Source: a virus. From it: a DNA stretch of 29,309 nt. Below are positions 2,883 to 17,736 of the stretch, piece by piece. Both the position numbers and the translations under genes were made by a program. The notes beneath the pieces are model-generated. The model worked only from the letters and a program-made list of their open reading frames with translations. It made no database searches and was not told the DNA's origin. Position 1 is the stretch's first letter; each line of letters opens with the position of its first letter. The stretch is taken from positions 1 to 29,309 of IMG/VR virus record IMGVR_UViG_3300028800_000263. One strand, 5' to 3'.

Positions 2883-4496
2883 TTATGCGCCGCGCGTTTT
2901 GCGAAAGGTCCCGCCGCCTGCCGGGGCGCCGTCCTTTCCCGACTTGTCGTTGGCCGGCTGGCCGCCGCCGAATGGCTGTTTCGGCAGACCGGTCAGCGGG
3001 TCGATTTCCGGACCTGAATTCAGGCCGACCAGCTTCAGCCGGTCCTCGGGCGACAGGTCGAGGAAGTCCGCCAGCAGAATAGGACCGCGCTGGGTGTAAA
3101 TCGCGTTCCCCATGCCGATCGCGTCCAGGCCCAGGTCGGCCCGAATATCGTCGATCGACTTGCTGCCGTTCTTCAGATAGACGTCATTCGAAGTCGCGAG
3201 CGCGCCCTCGTCGATCTTTTCATCGTCGACCCAGACGAACTCAAGATCGGGCGCCTTCATGTAGACCCGAATAATCCGGTCCATGACGCCCTTGATGAAT
3301 TTCAGCAGCGGTTGAATCCCTTCCTCGGCCGCCTGCTTCATGGCGGTCTCGGCCGTGGCGCGGTTCATCATCTTGACGAACGGCGTCGGGGGGATGCTGA
3401 AGGCGAAACAGACGACGCGCGCGAGCCATTCGTCGTATTCGTCCTTGATCATCGGCTCGCGGGTGGGGACGTAGTTTTTCGCGATATCGCCGGGGACGAA
3501 CTTTGCATGGCGGCGCTGGGCCGTGTCGCCCTCGAGCATCGCGTCCCAATTGCTTTGAAAGCGTTTGATTTCGTCCGGGTTCCAGGTCGCGGGCACACCG
3601 ATCAGCGCGTCCGGGATATTGCCCTCGGTGTAATACTGAAGCTGGGCCGTTTGGCGGCGCAGCGCGATATTGACCGTCGTTATGATTTGCTCGACGGGCG
3701 AATATCCGTAAAGGCGCCGCGTCCGAAAGTTCCTCGGCAGATACAGCAGGTCGTCGCGCGTGTAGTCGGTCGCGGGCAGGCCCTTGATCACCTGCTGATA
3801 GGCGACGGAAGGCGGCAAGGGCGTGCGGCCGCCGTTGTCGACCTTGCGGACGATCGTCGCGCCGTCCAGCAGGTCCAGAGAATATAGGTCGTCGAGGATC
3901 GCAACGGCGCCAGCGTCGTCCGGTGAATTTCGCCCGTTCCTTCGCGCCTGGCCGCCGATCGTCGGCCGCGGATAAATGGTAGCGGCGTCGATGACGAACA
4001 TATCCTCGAGGAAGGCGCGCAGCCAGACGCCGAACTCGTGTTCCTTGTCCGGGAAGGCCAGGAACGCCTCTAGCGGCGCGATCCGGGCATCCTGCGGAGA
4101 TCCGGTCTTGGGTTTCGGCTCGCCCGGCTTCATTCGCTTGGCGATCGACCAGCCGAGCTTTTCAATCTGGTCTTTCCGGGTTTCGATCACCAGCCGCAGC
4201 AGGTCGTAGTTGTCCGCCAGGCCGATCAATTGGCCGAAGCTGACGGCCTCGTTGGCGCGCGGCGCCTGCTGGGTATTGACCGCGAACGGATAGTCGAACT
4301 GCCGGCCGTGGGCCTGTTCCTGGGCGGTCGGCAGAAGCGGCTGGCCGGGGCCGAAGAAATCATCCGGTGCCGACGCGCCGCGGACCGTGTAGCTGACGCC
4401 GCGGACGACGGCGTCGATCACGCTTGAGGCTATCCCGGTCTTGACGCCTTCGCTTCGCTGATTCTTGCCGGCGCGCGGATTTGCGGCGTCGGTCAC
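2883..4496 (-). CDS. Phage portal protein (HK97 portal superfamily)
   Basis: A 537-residue protein matching the length and pattern of HK97-type portals, the dodecameric ring at one capsid vertex through which DNA enters and leaves. Recognisable parts include the N-terminal DLLRLVIETRKDQIEKLGW helix, a central beta-rich region, the LYGYSPVEQIITTVNIALRR segment (about 270-290), the WDAMLEGD motif and FAFSIPPTPFVKMMNRATAE (about 362-381), the stem and wing landmarks of the family. The tail is Gly/Pro-rich and disordered. The start is GTG at 4496, overlapping the upstream stop as GTGA with no Shine-Dalgarno, so expression probably depends on coupling. It directly precedes the Mu F-like gene, as usual. 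Confidence 0.9.
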   Translation of the reverse strand: MTDAANPRAGKNQRSEGVKTGIASSVIDAVVRGVSYTVRGASAPDDFFGPGQPLLPTAQEQAHGRQFDYPFAVNTQQAPRANEAVSFGQLIGLADNYDLLRLVIETRKDQIEKLGWSIAKRMKPGEPKPKTGSPQDARIAPLEAFLAFPDKEHEFGVWLRAFLEDMFVIDAATIYPRPTIGGQARRNGRNSPDDAGAVAILDDLYSLDLLDGATIVRKVDNGGRTPLPPSVAYQQVIKGLPATDYTRDDLLYLPRNFRTRRLYGYSPVEQIITTVNIALRRQTAQLQYYTEGNIPDALIGVPATWNPDEIKRFQSNWDAMLEGDTAQRRHAKFVPGDIAKNYVPTREPMIKDEYDEWLARVVCFAFSIPPTPFVKMMNRATAETAMKQAAEEGIQPLLKFIKGVMDRIIRVYMKAPDLEFVWVDDEKIDEGALATSNDVYLKNGSKSIDDIRADLGLDAIGMGNAIYTQRGPILLADFLDLSPEDRLKLVGLNSGPEIDPLTGLPKQPFGGGQPANDKSGKDGAPAGGGTFRKTRGA

Positions 4497-6196
4497 GGAT
4501 AAAGGACCGGGTTGGTCGCGCTCAGGGCCGTATTGCGCATGAGCAGTTGGGTGGGCGCGATCGCGGTGCCGAGCAGCCAGCCGGTGTTATTTGCCGTCAG
4601 GCTGCCGTCGCCGTTGGCGTAATAGGGCGTGCCAGGCGTCAGCCCCGAGAAGCCGGAAGCGATGCCGTCCGTCGCGACCGCGGCATTGGCGCCCGCCGCC
4701 GCGCTGCTTTGTGCGATTCCGAGGACACCGTAGTTCGCGACGAACGACGTGGGCGTGATGATATAGGCGAAGGAGCCAGTCGTGCCGCCGCCAACGCCGA
4801 GGACAGCCGTCGAGCTAATCGGCGCGATGTATGTGGCGAGCAGCAGCGTAATCTGCGGCGAGACCGTCGCCGTTGTGCCGCTAACCGACGCTTCGCTAAA
4901 TGGCGTTGTATTGAGCGCCCCGGTGACGACTGAACTGCTCGACGGCGCGACGATCTGTGCGCTGGAGGCAGCCAGCGCAGCGCCCGAACCAAGCGTGACA
5001 GTCGTGCCTGAAATACTCGCCACCCACAACTGAATGGCGGCGGAGGTGCTTGTGATCGCGGCGATATGCGTGGAGTCCAGCGACAGGATAGAGCCGTAGG
5101 AATTACCAAATCCCTTGAAAATAGTCGCCGTCGTACCGACTAACTGATTAATAGCACCGAGCGTTATGGTTGTGCCGGAGACCGTTCCCGCCGAGACAAA
5201 CGCCCCGGATGGGCTGCTCCACGCGATCACGAATGCCGATGATGAGAGTGGAGTTGAACTTATCGCTATGCCTGCCGACGACCCGCCACCGCCGCCCTGC
5301 GGCGTGACCGCAGCACTCGGGAAGGTGACAACCGTGCCGGTCAGCAGGCCGCAGATCGTGCTTTGAAGGTTGCTGTTGGCGCTGTCCGAATAGTTGACGA
5401 CGAAGTGTGTGCTGTCGAGGGCCGAGATAAAGAACCCGCGATTGGTCGTCGTCCCGATGACGACGCCAGACCCAAAGGTCGGCACAGTCGTCGCCACCGT
5501 GGCGGAGAAAATCGTGATCTTATTCGCGTTCGTGCTGTCGGAAATGCCGATCACGAACTGCGTCGAACTGACCGGGACTATGATCGCCGGAATGCCGGTC
5601 GTAGCCAGAACCGAATTGACCGACGCGCTGAAGCTGACCGGGGTTCCCGCCGTGACCGTGGTGCCGGAAATCGTGCCGACAACGACCGTCTGCTTGGCCG
5701 TGTTCGTGCTGTCCTGATATGAGACAACAAAGGTCGTGGAGTTCAGCGCGATGACGACAAATCCAGCAGTCGTCGAGGCGCTGAGTTGAACCGGCGTTCC
5801 TGCTGTGACAGTCGTGCCCGATATGCTGAGGGCAACCGCCCTCATGCTGCTGGAATTCGTCGAATCCGTAAAAACGGCAACGCCCAGCGTCGAACTGAGC
5901 ATTACGGCGACCATTTTGTTAGAAGCGGCCGTCGTCGCCGGTGCATTCGTGCTGGCCGAGAAATTCACCTGTCCGGCGAAGTTGATCAGCGGGGCAAAGG
6001 CGCCCGCGATCTTGCCGGAATTGGCGCTGCTCAGGGTGACGGCGTTCCCGGCGGTGACGGTGGAATTAGGATCAACGGTGAATGCCTGGCCGACCTGCTG
6101 CGCCTGTGGCCCGGGCGTGACCGTGACCTGTTGCGCGTCGGCGAACGGCGCCAGCAGCAGCGCCAGCGCGAGGACGAAACCGAATAGGCGCCTCAC
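4493..6196 (-). CDS. Signal-peptide-bearing beta-repeat protein, possible virion fibre or adhesin
   Basis: A 567-residue protein that starts with a signal peptide (MRR, hydrophobic 4-16, cleavage probably after the ADA near residue 21). Residues about 95-490 are seven or eight degenerate repeats of some 40-50 residues. Each has a first half like LDSTHFVVNYSDSAN (Ser-Thr, then FVV, then aromatic-x-DS) and a second half like ISGTTVTAGTPV. Alternating hydrophobic strands suggest a beta-propeller or similar beta-solid. Residues about 510-555 (GFSGLTPGTPYYANGDG, then GWLLGTAIAPTQLLM) resemble C-terminal caps of phage fibre or decoration proteins. The start is GTG at 6196, overlapping the upstream stop. 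The gene sits between terminase and portal. Function is inferred; no enzymatic motif is seen. Confidence 0.7.
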   Translation of the reverse strand: MRRLFGFVLALALLLAPFADAQQVTVTPGPQAQQVGQAFTVDPNSTVTAGNAVTLSSANSGKIAGAFAPLINFAGQVNFSASTNAPATTAASNKMVAVMLSSTLGVAVFTDSTNSSSMRAVALSISGTTVTAGTPVQLSASTTAGFVVIALNSTTFVVSYQDSTNTAKQTVVVGTISGTTVTAGTPVSFSASVNSVLATTGIPAIIVPVSSTQFVIGISDSTNANKITIFSATVATTVPTFGSGVVIGTTTNRGFFISALDSTHFVVNYSDSANSNLQSTICGLLTGTVVTFPSAAVTPQGGGGGSSAGIAISSTPLSSSAFVIAWSSPSGAFVSAGTVSGTTITLGAINQLVGTTATIFKGFGNSYGSILSLDSTHIAAITSTSAAIQLWVASISGTTVTLGSGAALAASSAQIVAPSSSSVVTGALNTTPFSEASVSGTTATVSPQITLLLATYIAPISSTAVLGVGGGTTGSFAYIITPTSFVANYGVLGIAQSSAAAGANAAVATDGIASGFSGLTPGTPYYANGDGSLTANNTGWLLGTAIAPTQLLMRNTALSATNPVLYP

Positions 6197-6786
6197 TGGA
6201 CCGCCCCCTTGATCGCGCCGGTTATGACGCCGGTCGTCTTAGTGAAGGGCGTCGTGGCGGAGGTGAGTATCGCCGTGATGCCCGTCGAATAGGCGGCGGC
6301 CGGGCCCGGATTATAATTGATCGAGGCCGACCCATTGGCCGGCAGCGGCACGAAATCCAGCGGCGTGATCGCTCCGTCGGCGGGCGCCGACGTGGCGTTG
6401 ACGACCACCAGGAAGCCCGGCGTCGCCGTGAGGTTTGTGGCATAGACGGAATAGAGGCTTCCGGCGCTGGCCTTGAGGACGTGGTTATTTTCCGCCGAGG
6501 CCGAGACGACCGGCGTTATCGTCAGGCCGTTCTTGGTCGAGATATTCCCCAGGGCGTCGACCGCCGCTTTCTGGCTCGTTACCGTGCCGTCGTTGAGCGC
6601 CGTCGAGGACGAGCCGCCGATGCTCGCCGTTACCGGTAGGGGATTGGCCGCCGTGACGGCCGTCCCGCTGAACCAAAGCTCGACCGGCGAGGCCGCCATC
6701 GCCAGGGGGACCCGATACAGATAGGCCGTGAACGCCAGCGCGGCCAGAAGGCCGAGCGAGGCGAGGATTTTCCGTTTCGGAGTCAT
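6193..6786 (-). CDS. Putative virion-associated protein with N-terminal hydrophobic segment
   Basis: A 197-residue protein. Residues 8-32 form a signal peptide or single membrane anchor (LASLGLLAALAFTAYLYRV, then AMAAS as a possible cleavage site). The rest is Ser/Thr/Ala-rich and beta-like, with the segment HVLKASAGSLYSVYATNLTATPG and a later LPANGSASINYNPG. I recall this pattern as a common uncharacterised family in alphaproteobacterial phages and prophages, but have no name for it. The ATG at 6786 has a GGGGGA ribosome-binding site six bases upstream. Its stop overlaps the GTG of the beta-repeat protein, so the two are probably translated together and may form one surface structure. Confidence 0.65.
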   Translation of the reverse strand: MTPKRKILASLGLLAALAFTAYLYRVPLAMAASPVELWFSGTAVTAANPLPVTASIGGSSSTALNDGTVTSQKAAVDALGNISTKNGLTITPVVSASAENNHVLKASAGSLYSVYATNLTATPGFLVVVNATSAPADGAITPLDFVPLPANGSASINYNPGPAAAYSTGITAILTSATTPFTKTTGVITGAIKGAVQ

Positions 6787-6822
6787 GTCGTCCCCCTGGA
6801 CTATGTTGCGGTAATGCCTGGC

Positions 6823-7365
6823 TTACGATGCCGGGTAAATCTGGCCTTCCATGTAGAAGTCCGCCGTCGCCGCCGCGCCCTGGCCCGTGGTCAGCGACAG
6901 TGTCGGGATCACGCCCGCGGCATAGACGGTCGGCAACGTGCCCGAAACGATCGTCAGGTCGAGGGCCAGCGCCGCGGCGGTCAGCGCCGAATATGCCTGC
7001 GCGGCCGCGACGATCGCCGTGCCGGCCTTGCTGGCCGCCGGATAGATTCCGCCCGCCGCGGTCGTGAGCGAGACCGAGGCATTGAGCGCGGTGATCTTGG
7101 TCGGGCGGAACTTCGCGCCCGCCGGCAGGTACATGACGAACGGCTGATCGGTCGTGACGTTCATATTCGCGCCGAGCAACCGCCCGATGTAATTCGGGCC
7201 GAGGCCGAACGGAACCGTCCGACAGCCCGCGCGCTCGAGGGTCGGAACGTCCAGCGGATCGGCGAGGAAAAAGCCCTGCACGTCCGGGACGTAAACATTG
7301 TTGTTGGGGGTCGCCTGGATCATGCCGCCGCCCGTCGGGCCCAGCATCAGAACCGTCTTAGCCAT
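6823..7365 (-). CDS. Phage structural protein, possible decoration or head-fibre component
   Basis: A 180-residue protein with no signal peptide. The N-terminal half has short turns and a Gly-rich start (MAKTVLMLGPTGGG) and a segment about a position on a product layer (VPDVQGFFLADPLDVPTLERAG). The C-terminal half holds KITALNASVSLTTAAGGIYP, a long Ala-rich helix (TAIVAAAQAYSALTAAALALDLT) and LSLTTGQGAAATADFYMEG. That C-terminal arrangement is one I associate with phage head-decoration or fibre proteins. Its ATG at 7365 lies inside the terminase stop region (8-bp overlap). Cellular role is therefore inferred from composition and from position between terminase and portal. Confidence 0.6.
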   Translation of the reverse strand: MAKTVLMLGPTGGGMIQATPNNNVYVPDVQGFFLADPLDVPTLERAGCRTVPFGLGPNYIGRLLGANMNVTTDQPFVMYLPAGAKFRPTKITALNASVSLTTAAGGIYPAASKAGTAIVAAAQAYSALTAAALALDLTIVSGTLPTVYAAGVIPTLSLTTGQGAAATADFYMEGQIYPAS

Positions 7366-8911
7366 TGTGTGATTTCCCTTCTCGTTTGGCCGCTTCGGCG
7401 ACTTCGCGCCGAGCCTTCAATTCCTGGCCGTAAAAGTCGATTAGACCGGTTTCGGACTCCCCGAGCATAAGCTCGGTCAAGACCCAAACGAGCGCGTCGA
7501 CCCGATTAGGGGACTCTTTGCTGGTGAGCGGATCCCAGGTGCATTGCTCGTCCTCGAGCGCCGGGAAATTCCCGACGTGATGCACAAGTCCCCGCTCATA
7601 CAGCGCCGCGACCGGTTCGGCCCTGACGGCCTTGCCGCGCGAAGCGACAACGTCCTTATACGACACATTTTTCCCGCTTGTCCCGTCCGGATTTTTCGCG
7701 ACGGTCCGAATCACATACTCGACCATGTCGCCGCCGAAGTTTTTTTCGCCGATCACGCGGTCGGCTTTCAGCTTCGAATAGAGCGCGACAGTGCGTTCGC
7801 CCCAGCCGTTCGGCGTGAAGTGACCGGACTCGTCGGCGAGGACATAGGCCTGCCCGTTCTCGCCCAGGCCAGCGGCGATAATCCCCTGCTCGTCGTTCGT
7901 GTCCTCGTCGCCGCCCGAGGGATCGACACCGACCACGACCCGCCGCAGGGTCGGCAGCACGTCCTCGATCTTGCGCGTGTCGCGGTGTATCTCGATCAGT
8001 TCGCGCCGCCACAGCGCGCCCGGCGCCTCGGCGCGGAATGCTTCCTCGACCGTGGCAGGATACTCGCGGCGGAAATTGTGGATCCCGCGCAGTTCGATGA
8101 TCTTGGCTCGCCGCCAGGTGACCTGCTCGAGGTCGAGGCCGTGCTTTTCTCGATAGGTCTTTTCCTCGCCTGTGATTTCGAAGCTGCCAGGGGTCGGCAG
8201 GCGATATTCGGGCTGCCAGAACCACGGGACGAATATCAGGATGAATTCGCCCACGCCCTGCAGCGCGTCGTTGCACATGCGATAGAACAGGCCCTGCCGG
8301 CCGGCTGACGTGGATTCCAGTATGACCTCGGTCCCGGGCGCATTCGGCACGGCCTGCAGCGCGCCTTTGACATGATCCTCGGCGTTGGGCCAATAGGCGA
8401 CCTCGGACCCATGGAAATATTGGAGCGTGTCGGACCGGCCCGCGCCCTTGCTGCCGGCGGTCGCGACCGCATAGCCGCTGTCGAGCCGGTTGAACTGCAG
8501 GACCTTGGAGTTCGATTTCTTGACCGCGGGCTTGAGCAGCGCCGGGCAATGGTCGAGATATCGTTTCGTCATTTCGAACAGCGTCGTCGTCGCGTCGTCA
8601 TTGTGGGTCAGAATGTAGCCCTTGACGCCCTTGCGATGGGTGATCTTCCAGAAGAAGCGGCCCTCGACCAGCGTGCTGCAGCCCTGCTGCCGGCCCTTGA
8701 GCACGATCGCGCGGATTTTGCCGACCTGCTTTAGCTGGGCCTCGAGGCGCGCGTGAATGTAAAGCTGCGCGGCGTTCAGGATCAGCGGCTTGACGGCCGC
8801 GGCCTTGGTCCGGATCCGGAGTGCCCTGGACGCATAGAGGGGAAAGTCGTCGCGCAGCCGCTGGCGGATGGCGCGCTCGCGCGGGGAAACGTCGCCGTTA
8901 TTTGTCGCCAT
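7358..8911 (-). CDS. terL: Terminase large subunit (ATPase and nuclease)
   Basis: A 517-residue packaging motor protein. The ATPase domain has a Walker A at 73-80 (GRQQGCST), a Walker B-like YFHGSE at 165-170 and a coupling motif ESTSAG at 199-204. The RNase H-fold nuclease is marked by D330 in VVGVDPSGGDEDT, E389 in VIGEKNFGGDMV and D472 in SPNRVDALVWVLTE, matching the three acidic residues expected. The protein cuts concatemeric DNA and pumps it through the portal. The ATG at 8911 overlaps the end of the small subunit gene by 14 bp. Length and motif order are normal for the family; nothing is missing. Confidence 0.95.
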   Translation of the reverse strand: MATNNGDVSPRERAIRQRLRDDFPLYASRALRIRTKAAAVKPLILNAAQLYIHARLEAQLKQVGKIRAIVLKGRQQGCSTLVEGRFFWKITHRKGVKGYILTHNDDATTTLFEMTKRYLDHCPALLKPAVKKSNSKVLQFNRLDSGYAVATAGSKGAGRSDTLQYFHGSEVAYWPNAEDHVKGALQAVPNAPGTEVILESTSAGRQGLFYRMCNDALQGVGEFILIFVPWFWQPEYRLPTPGSFEITGEEKTYREKHGLDLEQVTWRRAKIIELRGIHNFRREYPATVEEAFRAEAPGALWRRELIEIHRDTRKIEDVLPTLRRVVVGVDPSGGDEDTNDEQGIIAAGLGENGQAYVLADESGHFTPNGWGERTVALYSKLKADRVIGEKNFGGDMVEYVIRTVAKNPDGTSGKNVSYKDVVASRGKAVRAEPVAALYERGLVHHVGNFPALEDEQCTWDPLTSKESPNRVDALVWVLTELMLGESETGLIDFYGQELKARREVAEAAKREGKSHNG

Positions 8912-9278
8912 CGAGTTCGTCGAGGGCTTCCTCGTGGGTCTTGTTGCCGATATCGCCCGAATGCTCGATCTCGGTCTTGGGCTCGCGCATGCCGAGGTAT
9001 TGCTTAGTCGCCCAGATGATCAGCGCCGGGACCTTGTCCGTGACCGCGCCCTCATAGAGCGATTTGCGGAGGTTCGTGTCGGCCTTCATATGGCCGGTTT
9101 CCAGTTCCTCGGCGAAGTAGCGGCGCAGCGTCGTTATGTCGACGCCCTTGGGCCGAAGCATGCGGGCGATATGCGTCTGCGGGACGCGCAGCCCGGCCAT
9201 GCTTTCGACCAGGACTCTTTCCTGTTCCGTCGGCTTGAAGCTGGGCCGACCGCGCCGGTTATGTTTGATCTTTGCCAT
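8898..9278 (-). CDS. terS: Terminase small subunit-like DNA-binding protein
   Basis: A 126-residue protein beginning at the ATG at 9278 (MAKIKHNRRGRPSF); an upstream ATG at 9353 would add 25 residues overlapping the methylase and is less likely. The N-terminus is basic and is followed by a helix-turn-helix (TEQERVLVESMAGLRVPQTH, then IARML, then VDITTLRRYF). After it comes the conserved-looking GHMKADTNLRKSLYEGA and VPALIIWATKQYLGMREP, typical of a family of small phage packaging or DNA-recognition proteins encoded directly before terL. It probably recognises the packaging site. It overlaps the upstream methylase by 20 bp and the terL start by 14 bp. Confidence 0.75.
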   Translation of the reverse strand: MAKIKHNRRGRPSFKPTEQERVLVESMAGLRVPQTHIARMLRPKGVDITTLRRYFAEELETGHMKADTNLRKSLYEGAVTDKVPALIIWATKQYLGMREPKTEIEHSGDIGNKTHEEALDELDGDK

Positions 9279-10545
9279 CGCGCTCGAGCTTAGCCTGTTT
9301 TCCAGTGAAGTCCTGCCAGCGCGAAAATATGACGTCGCAATAGCCGGGGTCAATTTCCAGCCCGTAGCATATCCGCCCGGTTGTCTCGGCGGCGATCAGC
9401 GTGGTGCCGGATCCCAAGAACGGGTCATAGACCGCCTCGCCGGCCTTGGAGTTGTTCCGGATCGGCCGAGCCATGCATTCGAGAGGCTTCTGTGTCCCAT
9501 GGCCGGTTTCGTTTTTCCGGTTACTCGTGATTTTCCACAAGGTCGACTGCTTGCGATCTCCGGACCAGCGCGCAGTCGATCCTGCGCGGACAAAATACCA
9601 GCATCCTTCGTGTTGGGGATGATAGTGGCCGCGGCTGATCACCAGCCCTTCCTTGGCCCACACGATTAGGTTTCTGGGTTCGAAATCGACTGCACGAAAA
9701 TGGCCGACGAGGTCTGGCCCCTGGCGTTCGCCGTGCCAGACATAGGCCACGTCGCCGGGGAATAGTGCCCAGGCATCCGTCCAGTCTGAGCGATCGTCAT
9801 TGACGACTTTCCCGGCTGCGGCGTTCCGAGGTCGGAACGCCGTCGTTGATTTCAGATTCAGCTTTCCCGGTTGGTTCCGCCATCCCGGGTCGTAGCTGAT
9901 CCCATAGGGCGGGTCGGTCACCATCAGGTGCGGCCTGGCGCCGGCGAGCAATTTTGTGACAGCGTCCGCCGATGTTGCATCGCCGCATAAAAGCCGATGC
10001 TCGCCCATAACCCAAATATCGCCCGGCCTGGTGATCGGCTTCTTCGGTACCGGCGGGGTCGCTTCCGGGTCGCCCTTGGCCCCGGCGGCGAACAGCAGTC
10101 GAAGCTCGGGCGCGGCAAAGCCGGTCAGGGCCAGGTCTATCCCCAGGTCGCGCAGTTCCCCCATCTCGAGGCGCAAAAGCTCGTCGTTCCAGCCGGCATT
10201 GAGCGCCAGCTTGTTATCGGCAACCACGTAGGCCCGCCTCTGGCCCTCGGACAGGCCCGTCAGGGTGATTGTGGGGCATTGGGGCCGCCCGAGGGCCAGC
10301 GCCGCCAGGACGCGCCCGTGGCCCGCCACGATGCCATCCTGCTCGTCGACTAGGACCGGGTTCGTCCAGCCAAAGGCCTCGATCGAGGCGGCGATTTGCT
10401 TAACCTGCTCGGGGGAGTGGGTCCGGGCGTTCCGGGCATAGGGCACCAGGGTTGCCGTATCCCGCCAGACGACGGCCAGGGCCCGGTCTTTTATAGGGGT
10501 CGATTTATTGGCTTTTTGGCGGTTTACCGCCGTTTTGCGCGCCAC
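9259..10545 (-). CDS. ParB-domain DNA methyltransferase (beta-class, N4/N6)
   Basis: A 428-residue two-domain protein. Residues 25-115 are a ParB/Srx N-terminal fold (LVPYARNARTHSPEQVKQIA, NPVLVDEQDGIVAGHGRVLA with the GHGR box, VVADNKLA). Residues 175-410 are an S-adenosylmethionine-dependent amino-methyltransferase: catalytic DPPYG at 211-215, then target-recognition sequence, then SAM-binding DPFLGSGTT at 374-382. DPPY ahead of FxGxG puts it in the beta class, modifying adenine N6 or cytosine N4. Phages use such enzymes to evade restriction or mark packaging DNA. The start is GTG at 10545, with an in-frame stop just upstream. It directly precedes the terminase genes. Target site cannot be read from sequence. 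Confidence 0.92.
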   Translation of the reverse strand: MARKTAVNRQKANKSTPIKDRALAVVWRDTATLVPYARNARTHSPEQVKQIAASIEAFGWTNPVLVDEQDGIVAGHGRVLAALALGRPQCPTITLTGLSEGQRRAYVVADNKLALNAGWNDELLRLEMGELRDLGIDLALTGFAAPELRLLFAAGAKGDPEATPPVPKKPITRPGDIWVMGEHRLLCGDATSADAVTKLLAGARPHLMVTDPPYGISYDPGWRNQPGKLNLKSTTAFRPRNAAAGKVVNDDRSDWTDAWALFPGDVAYVWHGERQGPDLVGHFRAVDFEPRNLIVWAKEGLVISRGHYHPQHEGCWYFVRAGSTARWSGDRKQSTLWKITSNRKNETGHGTQKPLECMARPIRNNSKAGEAVYDPFLGSGTTLIAAETTGRICYGLEIDPGYCDVIFSRWQDFTGKQAKLERDGKDQT

Positions 10546-11608: not shown

Positions 11609-11882
11609 TGAGGCTGCGACAGATAGCCACAATTTTGCCCGCGGCGCTATGGGGTCCGGGTTGACGGGACGTTAACCGCTTCCAATTCCGGGCGCCGGCG
11701 GCCCGGCGTTCCTTGGCGCTGATTTTTTTGAGCGGCCGAATGACCGGGAAAATATCTATGACGGGCGCCTTGTCGTCATAGAGGCGCAGCAAGACGGCGG
11801 CGCTGGCGAATTTTCGGGCGTCGAACTTCTTGGGGTTTAGCCACGCATCCCCGATCATGCGCCGCGCCTGCCGCGGGGTCAT
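11544..11882 (-). CDS. Small basic protein of unknown function
   Basis: A 112-residue protein from an ATG at 11882 (MTPRQARRMIGDAWLNPKKF) that overlaps the previous stop as ATGA. The first 70 residues are basic, with mixed helix and strand (FASAAVLLRLYDDKAPVIDIFPVIRPLKK). The C-terminal 45 residues look less structured and overlap the next gene by 65 bp, so the true protein might end functionally earlier. No known domain was recognised. Its coupling to the Tat-like gene upstream suggests co-expression. Confidence 0.5.
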   Translation of the reverse strand: MTPRQARRMIGDAWLNPKKFDARKFASAAVLLRLYDDKAPVIDIFPVIRPLKKISAKERRAAGARNWKRLTSRQPGPHSAAGKIVAICRSLNAGASQGEAIGPAARNHKARP

Positions 11883-12118
11883 GCGTCGACCCATCGGGCC
11901 CGCGTCGTCAGGACCTCGCCGACATAGGCTGGCGAAACTCCGAAGGTCTGGGCGACCGTGCGCGCCAGCCAGTTGTCGAAAGATTCTTCGACGCCGGGCA
12001 CGAACCACGGACCGGCCGACAGCAGCGAACGGATCGGCATTAGCAGGCCCGACCGAACGACGATCGGCGCCGCGATGGCGCCCGCGAGGACGCCGAGGAA
12101 ACCGCGCCGGCCGATCAT
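11879..12118 (-). CDS. Small exported protein with Tat-type signal sequence
   Basis: A 79-residue protein starting with MIGRRGFLGVLAGAIAAPIVV. The RRGFLG motif followed by a moderately hydrophobic stretch and Ala residues fits a twin-arginine signal. The next section, VRSGLLMPIRSLL, recurs as far as I remember in small proteins of alphaproteobacterial phages; these have no assigned role. The remaining 45 residues contain Trp and acidic residues but no catalytic motif. It is coupled to both neighbours by ATGA overlaps. It could act in the periplasm, for example in superinfection exclusion or lysis, but that is speculation. Confidence 0.6.
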   Translation of the reverse strand: MIGRRGFLGVLAGAIAAPIVVRSGLLMPIRSLLSAGPWFVPGVEESFDNWLARTVAQTFGVSPAYVGEVLTTRARWVDA

Positions 12119-16095: not shown

Positions 16096-16475
16096 TTGAA
16101 CAGGTCGCCGTCAGCGCGCCGCTTGCGCCTCGTCTCGGCGCTGTTTCGGGCATGGTGATGGGCGTCATATTTCAGATGGCATCGCTGGCACATAGCCCGC
16201 AGGTTGTCGTCCGCGCAGTGTTCGGGCGTATGGTCGAGATGGGCTACGGTCAGGACGACGGTCGACCCGGTGACAGGGTGTTTTCCCGCGTTGCGCGCAT
16301 AGCAGCGCCAGACCTCTTTGCCGGCCAAATCAGGCCGATATGGGTCGTCGGCATGGTGACTGATGCCGCATTCGCCCTCGCATTCGCAGCGCCCGCCTGA
16401 CCGCTCGCGGATCCGCTTGCTGATCGCCGACCAATCCTTCGGATATCGCGCGCGGTTTTCGGCCTTTATGGGCAT
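16092..16475 (-). CDS. HNH endonuclease-like protein
   Basis: A 127-residue protein with an HNH-type core: AHLDHTPEHCADDNLRAMC at 78-96, with His80, Asp81 and His82, Asn91, then CQRCH at 96-100 and a basic HHHARNSAETRRKRR tail. Cys30, Cys32 and Cys36 near the N-terminus could add a zinc site. HNH enzymes nick or cut DNA, and in phages act in packaging, recombination or homing. This one is not next to the terminase and sits beside replication and methyltransferase genes. Catalysis is likely but untested; the ATG at 16475 overlaps the MT-A70 gene by 10 bp. Confidence 0.75.
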   Translation of the reverse strand: MPIKAENRARYPKDWSAISKRIRERSGGRCECEGECGISHHADDPYRPDLAGKEVWRCYARNAGKHPVTGSTVVLTVAHLDHTPEHCADDNLRAMCQRCHLKYDAHHHARNSAETRRKRRADGDLFK

Positions 16476-17221
16476 TTTTTCTTGCCCCGCATGGCCTCGA
16501 TCGCCACGTCGTAGCAGCCGCGGCTATTGGCCTCGGCGTCCGGCCAGCCGTCCGCGTAGGGGTCGGCTTCCGCTTTCACCCCCTCTTTTGAGGGCGGAAA
16601 AATTAACATGGGGTCCGGAACTGGCGCGAATTTATCCGTCTGGTTGCCCCAAACGTCCCAGCCCGGCCGCTTTTGCCTGGCGAATAGTTCGAGGTAGGGG
16701 CCAGCCACCAGACGCTCTATCCGCTCATGGATGCCGTCAGGCTTGCGGGAGTGCTCGCGGCGCGGTGCTATGATTCCTTGGCGCACATCGGCGTTGAGGC
16801 GCTTGGGCTTGCCGCGCGTTGCCAGCAGGCATGGTTCTGTGTTGGCGCGGGTCCAGTAACCCATCCCGGCGGTCGGCGTTTTGTCGTCAGCAAAGAGGCG
16901 GTAAGGGTCGGCCTTCATCCATGAGAAGGCGCAGGTTTTATATTTGAACTCCCAGCCCTGCAGGACCGCGAACGCCTTGTCCATCACGGGCCAGCATGTC
17001 CACATGAAAACGACGCAGTCCTCGGCCGCCAATTCGCTAACAGGTAGCGCGGCAATCTGGTCAGTCGTCAGCGTGTCGTAGTGAGCGTCGACCGCCCGCG
17101 ATGGATAATTGCCGCCGACCTTCTTCGGTCGGCCGCCCCACAGGCTATCGAACTGCCACGGCGGGTCAGCGAGGATCGCCCCATAATGCCCGCGCGGGAG
17201 ACCTGCGAACGCGTCAGTCAC
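16466..17221 (-). CDS. MT-A70-family DNA adenine methyltransferase
   Basis: A 251-residue protein from the GTG at 17221, which overlaps the resolvase stop as GTGA; longer starts in the same frame read through the resolvase and are rejected. The catalytic DPPW is at 19-22. Further landmarks of the MT-A70 family follow: MWTCWPVMDKAF, MGYWTRANTEPCLLATRGKP and SRKPDGIHERIERLVAGPY, ELFARQKRPGWDVWGNQ. These enzymes add a methyl group to the N6 of adenine. In phages they often protect against restriction. The fit over the whole length is good. It is the second methyltransferase in this window. Confidence 0.9.
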   Translation of the reverse strand: MTDAFAGLPRGHYGAILADPPWQFDSLWGGRPKKVGGNYPSRAVDAHYDTLTTDQIAALPVSELAAEDCVVFMWTCWPVMDKAFAVLQGWEFKYKTCAFSWMKADPYRLFADDKTPTAGMGYWTRANTEPCLLATRGKPKRLNADVRQGIIAPRREHSRKPDGIHERIERLVAGPYLELFARQKRPGWDVWGNQTDKFAPVPDPMLIFPPSKEGVKAEADPYADGWPDAEANSRGCYDVAIEAMRGKKKCP

Positions 17222-17736
17222 GTCAGCCGCGCCGCGTGAAGGGCCCTGGCCTCGACTTCGCCAGCGCGCAGCATGGCCTTGGCGTAATCCCAGACCGCGC
17301 CCGAGTCCGATTCGTCGAACGTCTTGGGGGTCCAGCCCAGCGACTTGCATCGGTCCATGACTACCACCTTGGGATTTTTGGGATAAGCGGACCCGACGAA
17401 ATGCCGCCGGACCGTCGAAACGTCGCAGCTATAGACCTCGAGGTCGAGTTCGAAACCGGTCAATTCCACCATGGCGCCGAGGCCCAGCAGCAACAGGGAA
17501 GCGTCGAGGCCGTGAAGTCGCTCGGTCAGCGCGGCTTCAAAAGCTAGAATCTCGGGCTTGTGAAGCGAGACCAGGCCCAGCAGGTCGCGGCGGAACTGCG
17601 CGAATGCCCGGCCCAAGGCTTCCCCGCCGTCGCTGTCGACCTTGAAGTTGCCGAACAGCGGCCGGTCGCCGCCGCTTGGCATATCGACGGCATAGCCCGT
17701 GGTTGTGGCGATATCGAGCGCGAGCAAGCGAGTCAT
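17218..17736 (-). CDS. RuvC-like Holliday junction resolvase
   Basis: A 172-residue protein of the RNase H fold. It starts LLALDIATTTGYA, with D8 as the first catalytic acid. E67 in ILAFEAALTERLHG is the likely second, and D141/D144 in FDESDSGAVWDYA the third and fourth, where the family usually has DExDA. The core RRHFVGSAYPKNPK and CKSLGWTPK match phage RuvC-like resolvases, which cut branched DNA made during recombination and replication before packaging. The Ser-Gly after the last Asp is unusual and worth noting. It overlaps the methyltransferase gene by 4 bp. Confidence 0.8.
   Translation of the reverse strand: MTRLLALDIATTTGYAVDMPSGGDRPLFGNFKVDSDGGEALGRAFAQFRRDLLGLVSLHKPEILAFEAALTERLHGLDASLLLLGLGAMVELTGFELDLEVYSCDVSTVRRHFVGSAYPKNPKVVVMDRCKSLGWTPKTFDESDSGAVWDYAKAMLRAGEVEARALHAARLT

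Follow-up and report, generated by a model that had tools for sequence, protein, structure and literature searches.

The window analysed here is the whole of the IMG/VR virus record IMGVR_UViG_3300028800_000263 (29,309 bases). Between its terminase and portal genes lie two genes encoding proteins of 197 and 567 amino acids (P197 and P567), each of which starts with a Sec-type signal peptide. Beyond what the sequence of the window alone could show, signals of this kind are shared by a large class of proteins encoded among phage head genes, and within this class they very likely work. As for P197 and P567 themselves, we tentatively favour the view that they are virion-type surface proteins, which would be made late, exported through Sec, folded in the periplasm and brought to finished particles at lysis; their role is unproven.

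P197 (6193-6786; like every feature of the window given below, on the minus strand) combines a signal peptide with a C-terminal beta-type domain. Its N-terminus reads MTPKRKILASLGLLAALAFTAYLYRVPLAMA|A, with a predicted cleavage at AMA|A after residue 31 (6694-6786). Start codons were chosen by ribosome-site scoring: the first ATG is preceded by AGGGGGA, and an alternative ATG at codon 30 has no good ribosome site. In P567 (4493-6196), the N-terminus reads VRRLFGFVLALALLLAPFADA|QQ, with a predicted cleavage at ADA|QQ (6134-6196). Its first 60 codons contain no second ATG, GTG or TTG, and the sole start lies upstream of conserved N-terminal strands; the signal must thus be translated if these strands are, because no other common start codon exists there. 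A chance or mis-start origin of the P567 signal sequence was rejected for want of an alternative start codon. Indeed, sequence, hydropathy and start codons show that both proteins truly begin with a positive n-region and a hydrophobic core followed by an AxA cleavage site, in agreement with a first-pass annotation of this DNA that had reported export or membrane signals on two of three proteins at this position.

The C-terminal domain of P197 (residues 88-197, i.e. 110 residues; 6196-6525) matches nothing in Pfam or PHROGs, is present in 73 IMG/VR loci and is 73-74% identical to the domain of locus L122. No relatives of this domain were found in INPHARED, the GTDB species genomes scanned contain it in one locus only (a prophage-like head module of Sphingomonas melonis), and it occurs in 4 of 201 Sphingomonas genomes; none of the isolates in the collections searched whose virion proteome is published carries a close relative. 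Its genes neighbour those for portals, capsid proteins, scaffolds and terminases. A signal peptide was called in 58 of the 65 untruncated non-redundant relatives. By the same rule, signal-bearing open reading frames (ORFs) amount to 1.7% in the terminase-set phage loci used as control and to 13% among the other genes of the P197-domain loci, the latter being due to a clustering, in these loci, of genes with signals that belong to several unrelated families; loci were picked via the families of P197 or of P180, the third protein of the junction, and the rates describe only those loci. P197 fits the class as defined here, i.e. a homologous C-terminal domain, a signal peptide and a gene located among head genes. 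No description of such a signal-bearing class was found in the open-access literature searched. Phage target proteins of diversity-generating retroelements are described as lacking the signal peptides found on bacterial targets (PMC6199706).

Runs of signal-bearing genes from several unrelated families were also seen near capsid or tail genes in L159 (4969-9819, several in a row after the capsid gene), L158 (2325-9143) and L123 (7593-12952). In Sphingomonas melonis AS2.3 (L206, 7504-8803), the portal gene is followed by a GroES-like protein and two overlapping signal-bearing genes (126 and 193 amino acids), with scaffold-like and major capsid genes coming later, so that this prophage-like head module possibly offers a cultivable carrier.

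Whether these signals are functional was tested in two ways, both via cysteines. The first concerns a cysteine pair of the P197 domain (alignment columns 58 and 93), which goes with the signal: at least two domain cysteines are found in 58 of 59 signal-bearing proteins versus none of the seven signal-free ones, the sole exception being the P197 of the window, in which the paired positions are F and P. On the domain tree, absence of the signal requires five changes or more, but only two independent pairs sit on well-supported branches, and the link between signal and cysteines therefore cannot reach significance by phylogeny alone. The second test is the parity of cysteine counts. Among the cysteine-containing proteins of these loci, the count is even in 72 of 78 signal-bearing proteins versus 220 of 491 (45%) without signal, and it is still even in 46 of 52 signal-bearing proteins once the P197 family is left out (Fisher 7e-10). 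A preference for even counts is described for exported Gram-negative proteins (PMC7678975). For Sec-exported proteins, even counts or paired cysteines are typical without being a requirement. Since both pairing and parity go with the signals, those of the class very likely work. L156 (5012-6330) encodes the domain twice, in adjacent genes with a 4-base overlap: one copy has no signal, and the second has a signal as well as two domain cysteines.

On this evidence, export can be told from non-export fairly well in the class, but poorly in the pair of the window. P197 groups as the sister of L149 inside the clade that combines signals with paired cysteines, so that it has probably lost its own. 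As the pair itself lacks the cysteine signature, Sec export of P197 and P567 in this phage is deduced from their signal sequences and from the class, and we regard it as reasonably probable.

P567 further displays a repeated central region. Six clear [SLT]GT[TV][VIA]T motifs occur at residues 126, 177, 286, 340, 396 and 439, a seventh, degenerate one lies near residue 232 and the last unit has no motif, so that the earlier count of seven or eight SGTTVT-type repeats was fair. Self-alignment gives a best offset of 51, with a score above 200 of 200 shuffles. An AlphaFold2 model run on a 22-sequence alignment has a mean pLDDT of 63, with four-stranded blades at approximately 75-90 over most of residues 93-405 (P567 alone yielded an unusable model, pLDDT 34). 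Comparison of this model by Foldseek and VIA-align returns propellers, the top rows (Z 22-24, residues 68-487) including many seven-bladed lectins; for residues 72-489, VIA-align gives Z 24.1 against Sec12 and 22.8 against PLL. Prediction and structural comparison thereby support a beta-propeller at residues 68-487 (4736-5995; residues 409-489 at low confidence), as the first-pass annotation had proposed. Its blades may number seven or eight: residues 409-489 have a pLDDT of 25-34, the best structural matches are mostly seven-bladed and one repeat unit appears in the alignment as an insertion relative to relatives. The Photorhabdus seven-bladed lectins PLL and PHL have a similar fold (Z 21-23 over approx. 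315 residues), but at 7-12% identity no sequence relationship is shown, and they lack the cement-like base described below. From the fold, glycan binding by the propeller is plausible.

Single-query scans with P567 detected no relatives in IMG/VR, GTDB genomes, INPHARED or PLSDB, sequence searches of the PDB gave no useful match, and the blade alignment offered no stretch conserved enough for scanning. Relatives came only after the SGTTVT unit had been turned into a DNA-level pattern, which retrieved 91 stretches from IMG/VR; a blade profile then gathered 73 viral proteins with at least three blades. Twenty-one proteins, 19-25% identical to P567, align with it over all or most of its length (short N-terminal strands, propeller and C-terminal hairpin region). 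Among viruses, the best matches come from phage proteins built in the same way, one of which is AYP28108.1 of Lentibacter phage ICBM2, an unnamed propeller protein of a marine phage with the same full-length layout of N-terminal strands, propeller and C-terminal base. Its gene is located two genes upstream of terminase and portal; unlike P567, it starts with MSTLRVDTITDEAG and has no signal peptide.

When the N-terminal strands (residues 34-63; 6008-6097) and the C-terminal part (residues 488-553; 4538-4735) of P567 are fused and the propeller removed, the resulting base matches Phage_cement_2 (PF09956) over profile positions 8-91 of 103, at 23.7 bits versus a cut-off of 24. The fused bases of two relatives score above this cut-off (26.6 and 26.3 bits), and three full-length members of the alignment show weak matches. 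Compared with Phage_cement_2 proteins, P567 thus falls 0.3 bits under the cut-off and carries in addition a mid-inserted propeller and a signal peptide. We read P567 as a putative cement-type base topped by a propeller, i.e. a capsid-surface design, on the marginal score of a joined sequence. The capsid-surface part suggested by the first-pass annotation accordingly finds support in the fold of P567 only.

The favoured succession of events would then be the following. P197 and P567 would be made late along with the head genes, as their operon position suggests, and exported by Sec; signal peptidase would cut their N-termini and both would fold in the periplasm, until lysis brought them into contact with finished particles. 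P567 could dock on capsids via its cement-like base, the retention of which suggests this step, and would present its lectin-like propeller. That the two are exported surface proteins of virion type is possible; the complete chain through to docking is, if anything, slightly more hesitant a proposal.

Export itself is also consistent with a second role, in which P197 and P567 never join virions. They would bind glycans, either in soluble form or attached to the envelope, and thereby mask receptors or matrix on the host and its debris. By the logic of T5 Llp, this masking would protect progeny or exclude other phages. Signals, cysteine pairing and parity all agree with this proposal, as do the lectin-like propeller of P567, the signal-bearing tail-type neighbours met elsewhere (e.g. 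the 856-residue protein of L162, PHROG 17312) and the mosaic clustering of signal-bearing genes. However, a free lectin would not need the whole cement-like base of P567, and the two genes are surrounded by head genes, not by early or lysogenic-conversion ones. We hold masking to be somewhat doubtful, and current evidence leaves docking and a soluble role unseparated.

Several points weigh against export followed by docking. Tailed phage capsids assemble in the cytoplasm, which in the prevailing view is the site of all particle building, and we know of no tailed-phage virion protein that is exported by Sec. The signal peptides were called by a simple home-made rule (charge, hydrophobic core, AxA) and not by SignalP, and the long signal of P197 could be an uncleaved anchor. 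The window pair lacks the cysteine signature of the class (no cysteine in P197, one in P567), and 72 of the 73 blade proteins, full-length P567 relatives included, are signal-free. Finally, the cement match of P567 is marginal and was obtained with an artificial joined sequence.

Part of this list speaks for another interpretation, namely that the N-termini are not export signals here and serve as virion anchors or are cut at head maturation, P197 and P567 being ordinary cytoplasmic capsid decorations. The long hydrophobic stretch of P197, the absence from both proteins of the paired cysteines of exported relatives and the signal-free virion-type relatives of P567 would all fit. Yet the AxA cleavage motifs, the charged n-regions and the varied but always signal-like N-termini of relatives argue otherwise, within the class such N-termini do lead to export, as cysteine pairing and parity show, and P197 nests inside a signal-bearing clade. 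Such anchors or maturation-cut segments are unlikely.

Several phage proteins pass through Sec, such as the SAR and Sec endolysins, T5 Llp and the filamentous coat proteins; to our knowledge, none of these is a fibre- or cement-type protein encoded among the head genes of a tailed phage. The proteins gathered here seem to form a large and apparently undescribed class, invisible in Pfam and PHROGs, of fibre- or cement-like proteins of head modules that would be routed through Sec and bear the cysteine signature of periplasmic folding. Given such a class, either certain parts of the virion would have to be added after leaving the cytoplasm, or phages would flood the surroundings of the host with copies of their own surface domains just before lysis. 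More speculatively, and with rather low confidence, many uncultivated tailed phages may use two compartments for assembly: heads and tails would be built in the cytoplasm, and a set of disulfide-stabilised surface proteins would be exported by Sec, folded in the oxidising periplasm of the host and fitted to the particles only at lysis. P197 and P567 would then be a cysteine-poor example.

The genetic context of the pair was examined in the window and in related loci. The genes follow each other on the minus strand in the order methyltransferase, small terminase, large terminase (TerL), P180, P197, P567, portal, MuF-like head protein and a 583-residue head-module protein (P583). TerL (7358-8911; PHROG 979, 1.2e-24; Pfam Terminase_6C) and the portal (2883-4496; PHROG 2662, 1.8e-71; Pfam Phage_portal) frame the three genes, whose products have no whole-protein matches in Pfam or PHROGs. 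Third-position GC is of coding type throughout (0.76-0.87), and the coding signature of the three genes is that of their neighbours; the presence of three genes at this place is confirmed. They had been described as coupled, and this stands for TerL/P180 (8 nt overlap), P197/P567 (4 nt) and P567/portal (4 nt), but P180 and P197 are separated by 36 nt.

The assumption that terminase and portal genes are usually adjacent was borne out in part. They are adjacent in L045 and L051, which are close by terminase, and in the cultured phages closest by portal, the Brevundimonas phages Polewnik and Strzyga; however, small genes recur between them in L009, L010, L023, L149 and L162. In L149, a signal-bearing P197 relative separates the terminase from the portal (PHROG 12082, 6e-154), and in L162 the terminase is followed by several signal-bearing genes, one of them for a P197 relative, and then by a portal of the window's PHROG family. 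The portals next to which signal-bearing genes are found at this junction therefore belong to at least two families. That two coupled genes occupy a junction empty in several relatives might also suggest a moron, i.e. exported proteins of bacterial origin, unrelated to the virion, that alter the host surface to the host's benefit. This origin is highly improbable, as relatives of the P197 domain are almost confined to viral contigs (apart from the single GTDB locus and the few Sphingomonas genomes mentioned above), the strand is shared with head genes, the frames overlap and the architecture of P567 is viral. The 856-residue signal-bearing protein in the terminase-portal gap of L162 (protein at 3343-5913) has a motif like that of tailspikes near its N-terminus, and its C-terminal part matches PHROG 17312 (tail protein).

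P180 (180 amino acids; 6823-7365) does not belong to the oddity of this junction, which is the P197-P567 pair, contrary to the first-pass annotation that had grouped all three. It lacks a signal peptide, shows conservation along most of its sequence in the alignment and has relatives in 40 IMG/VR loci, where it is a regular companion of the portal/MuF/P583 head module: its family lies between terminase and portal in L009, L010 and L023, alone or with small genes, and adjoins the portal, P583 or capsid gene in other loci. Comparison with related phages thus marks P180 as an ordinary member of this module, and shows signal-bearing genes recurring in L149 and L162. A kinship between P180 and the P197 domain was rejected (profile comparison probability 0.2). 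In L030 (7893-10356) and L154 (8782-11147), a QSGxVTPGH motif is common to a signal-free P180 relative and a nearby signal-bearing protein.

Downstream of the portal, the MuF-like minor head protein (2045-2878; Pfam Phage_Mu_F, 4.5e-12) is followed by P583 (297-2048; PHROG 21715, function unknown). The position of its relatives suggests a scaffold- or protease-like protein, since in L002, L009, L010 and L023 the counterpart immediately precedes what is probably the gene for the major capsid protein. The window also encodes an MT-A70-type and a ParB-fused N6/N4 methyltransferase (16466-17350 and 9259-10545, respectively). Lastly, a small ORF at 11879-12118 has a twin-arginine-like start (MIGRRGFLGVLAGAIAAPIVVRSG), and in L127 small proteins similar to it (MIARRSFITGLATLIAAPAIVRA) are encoded beside exported genes.

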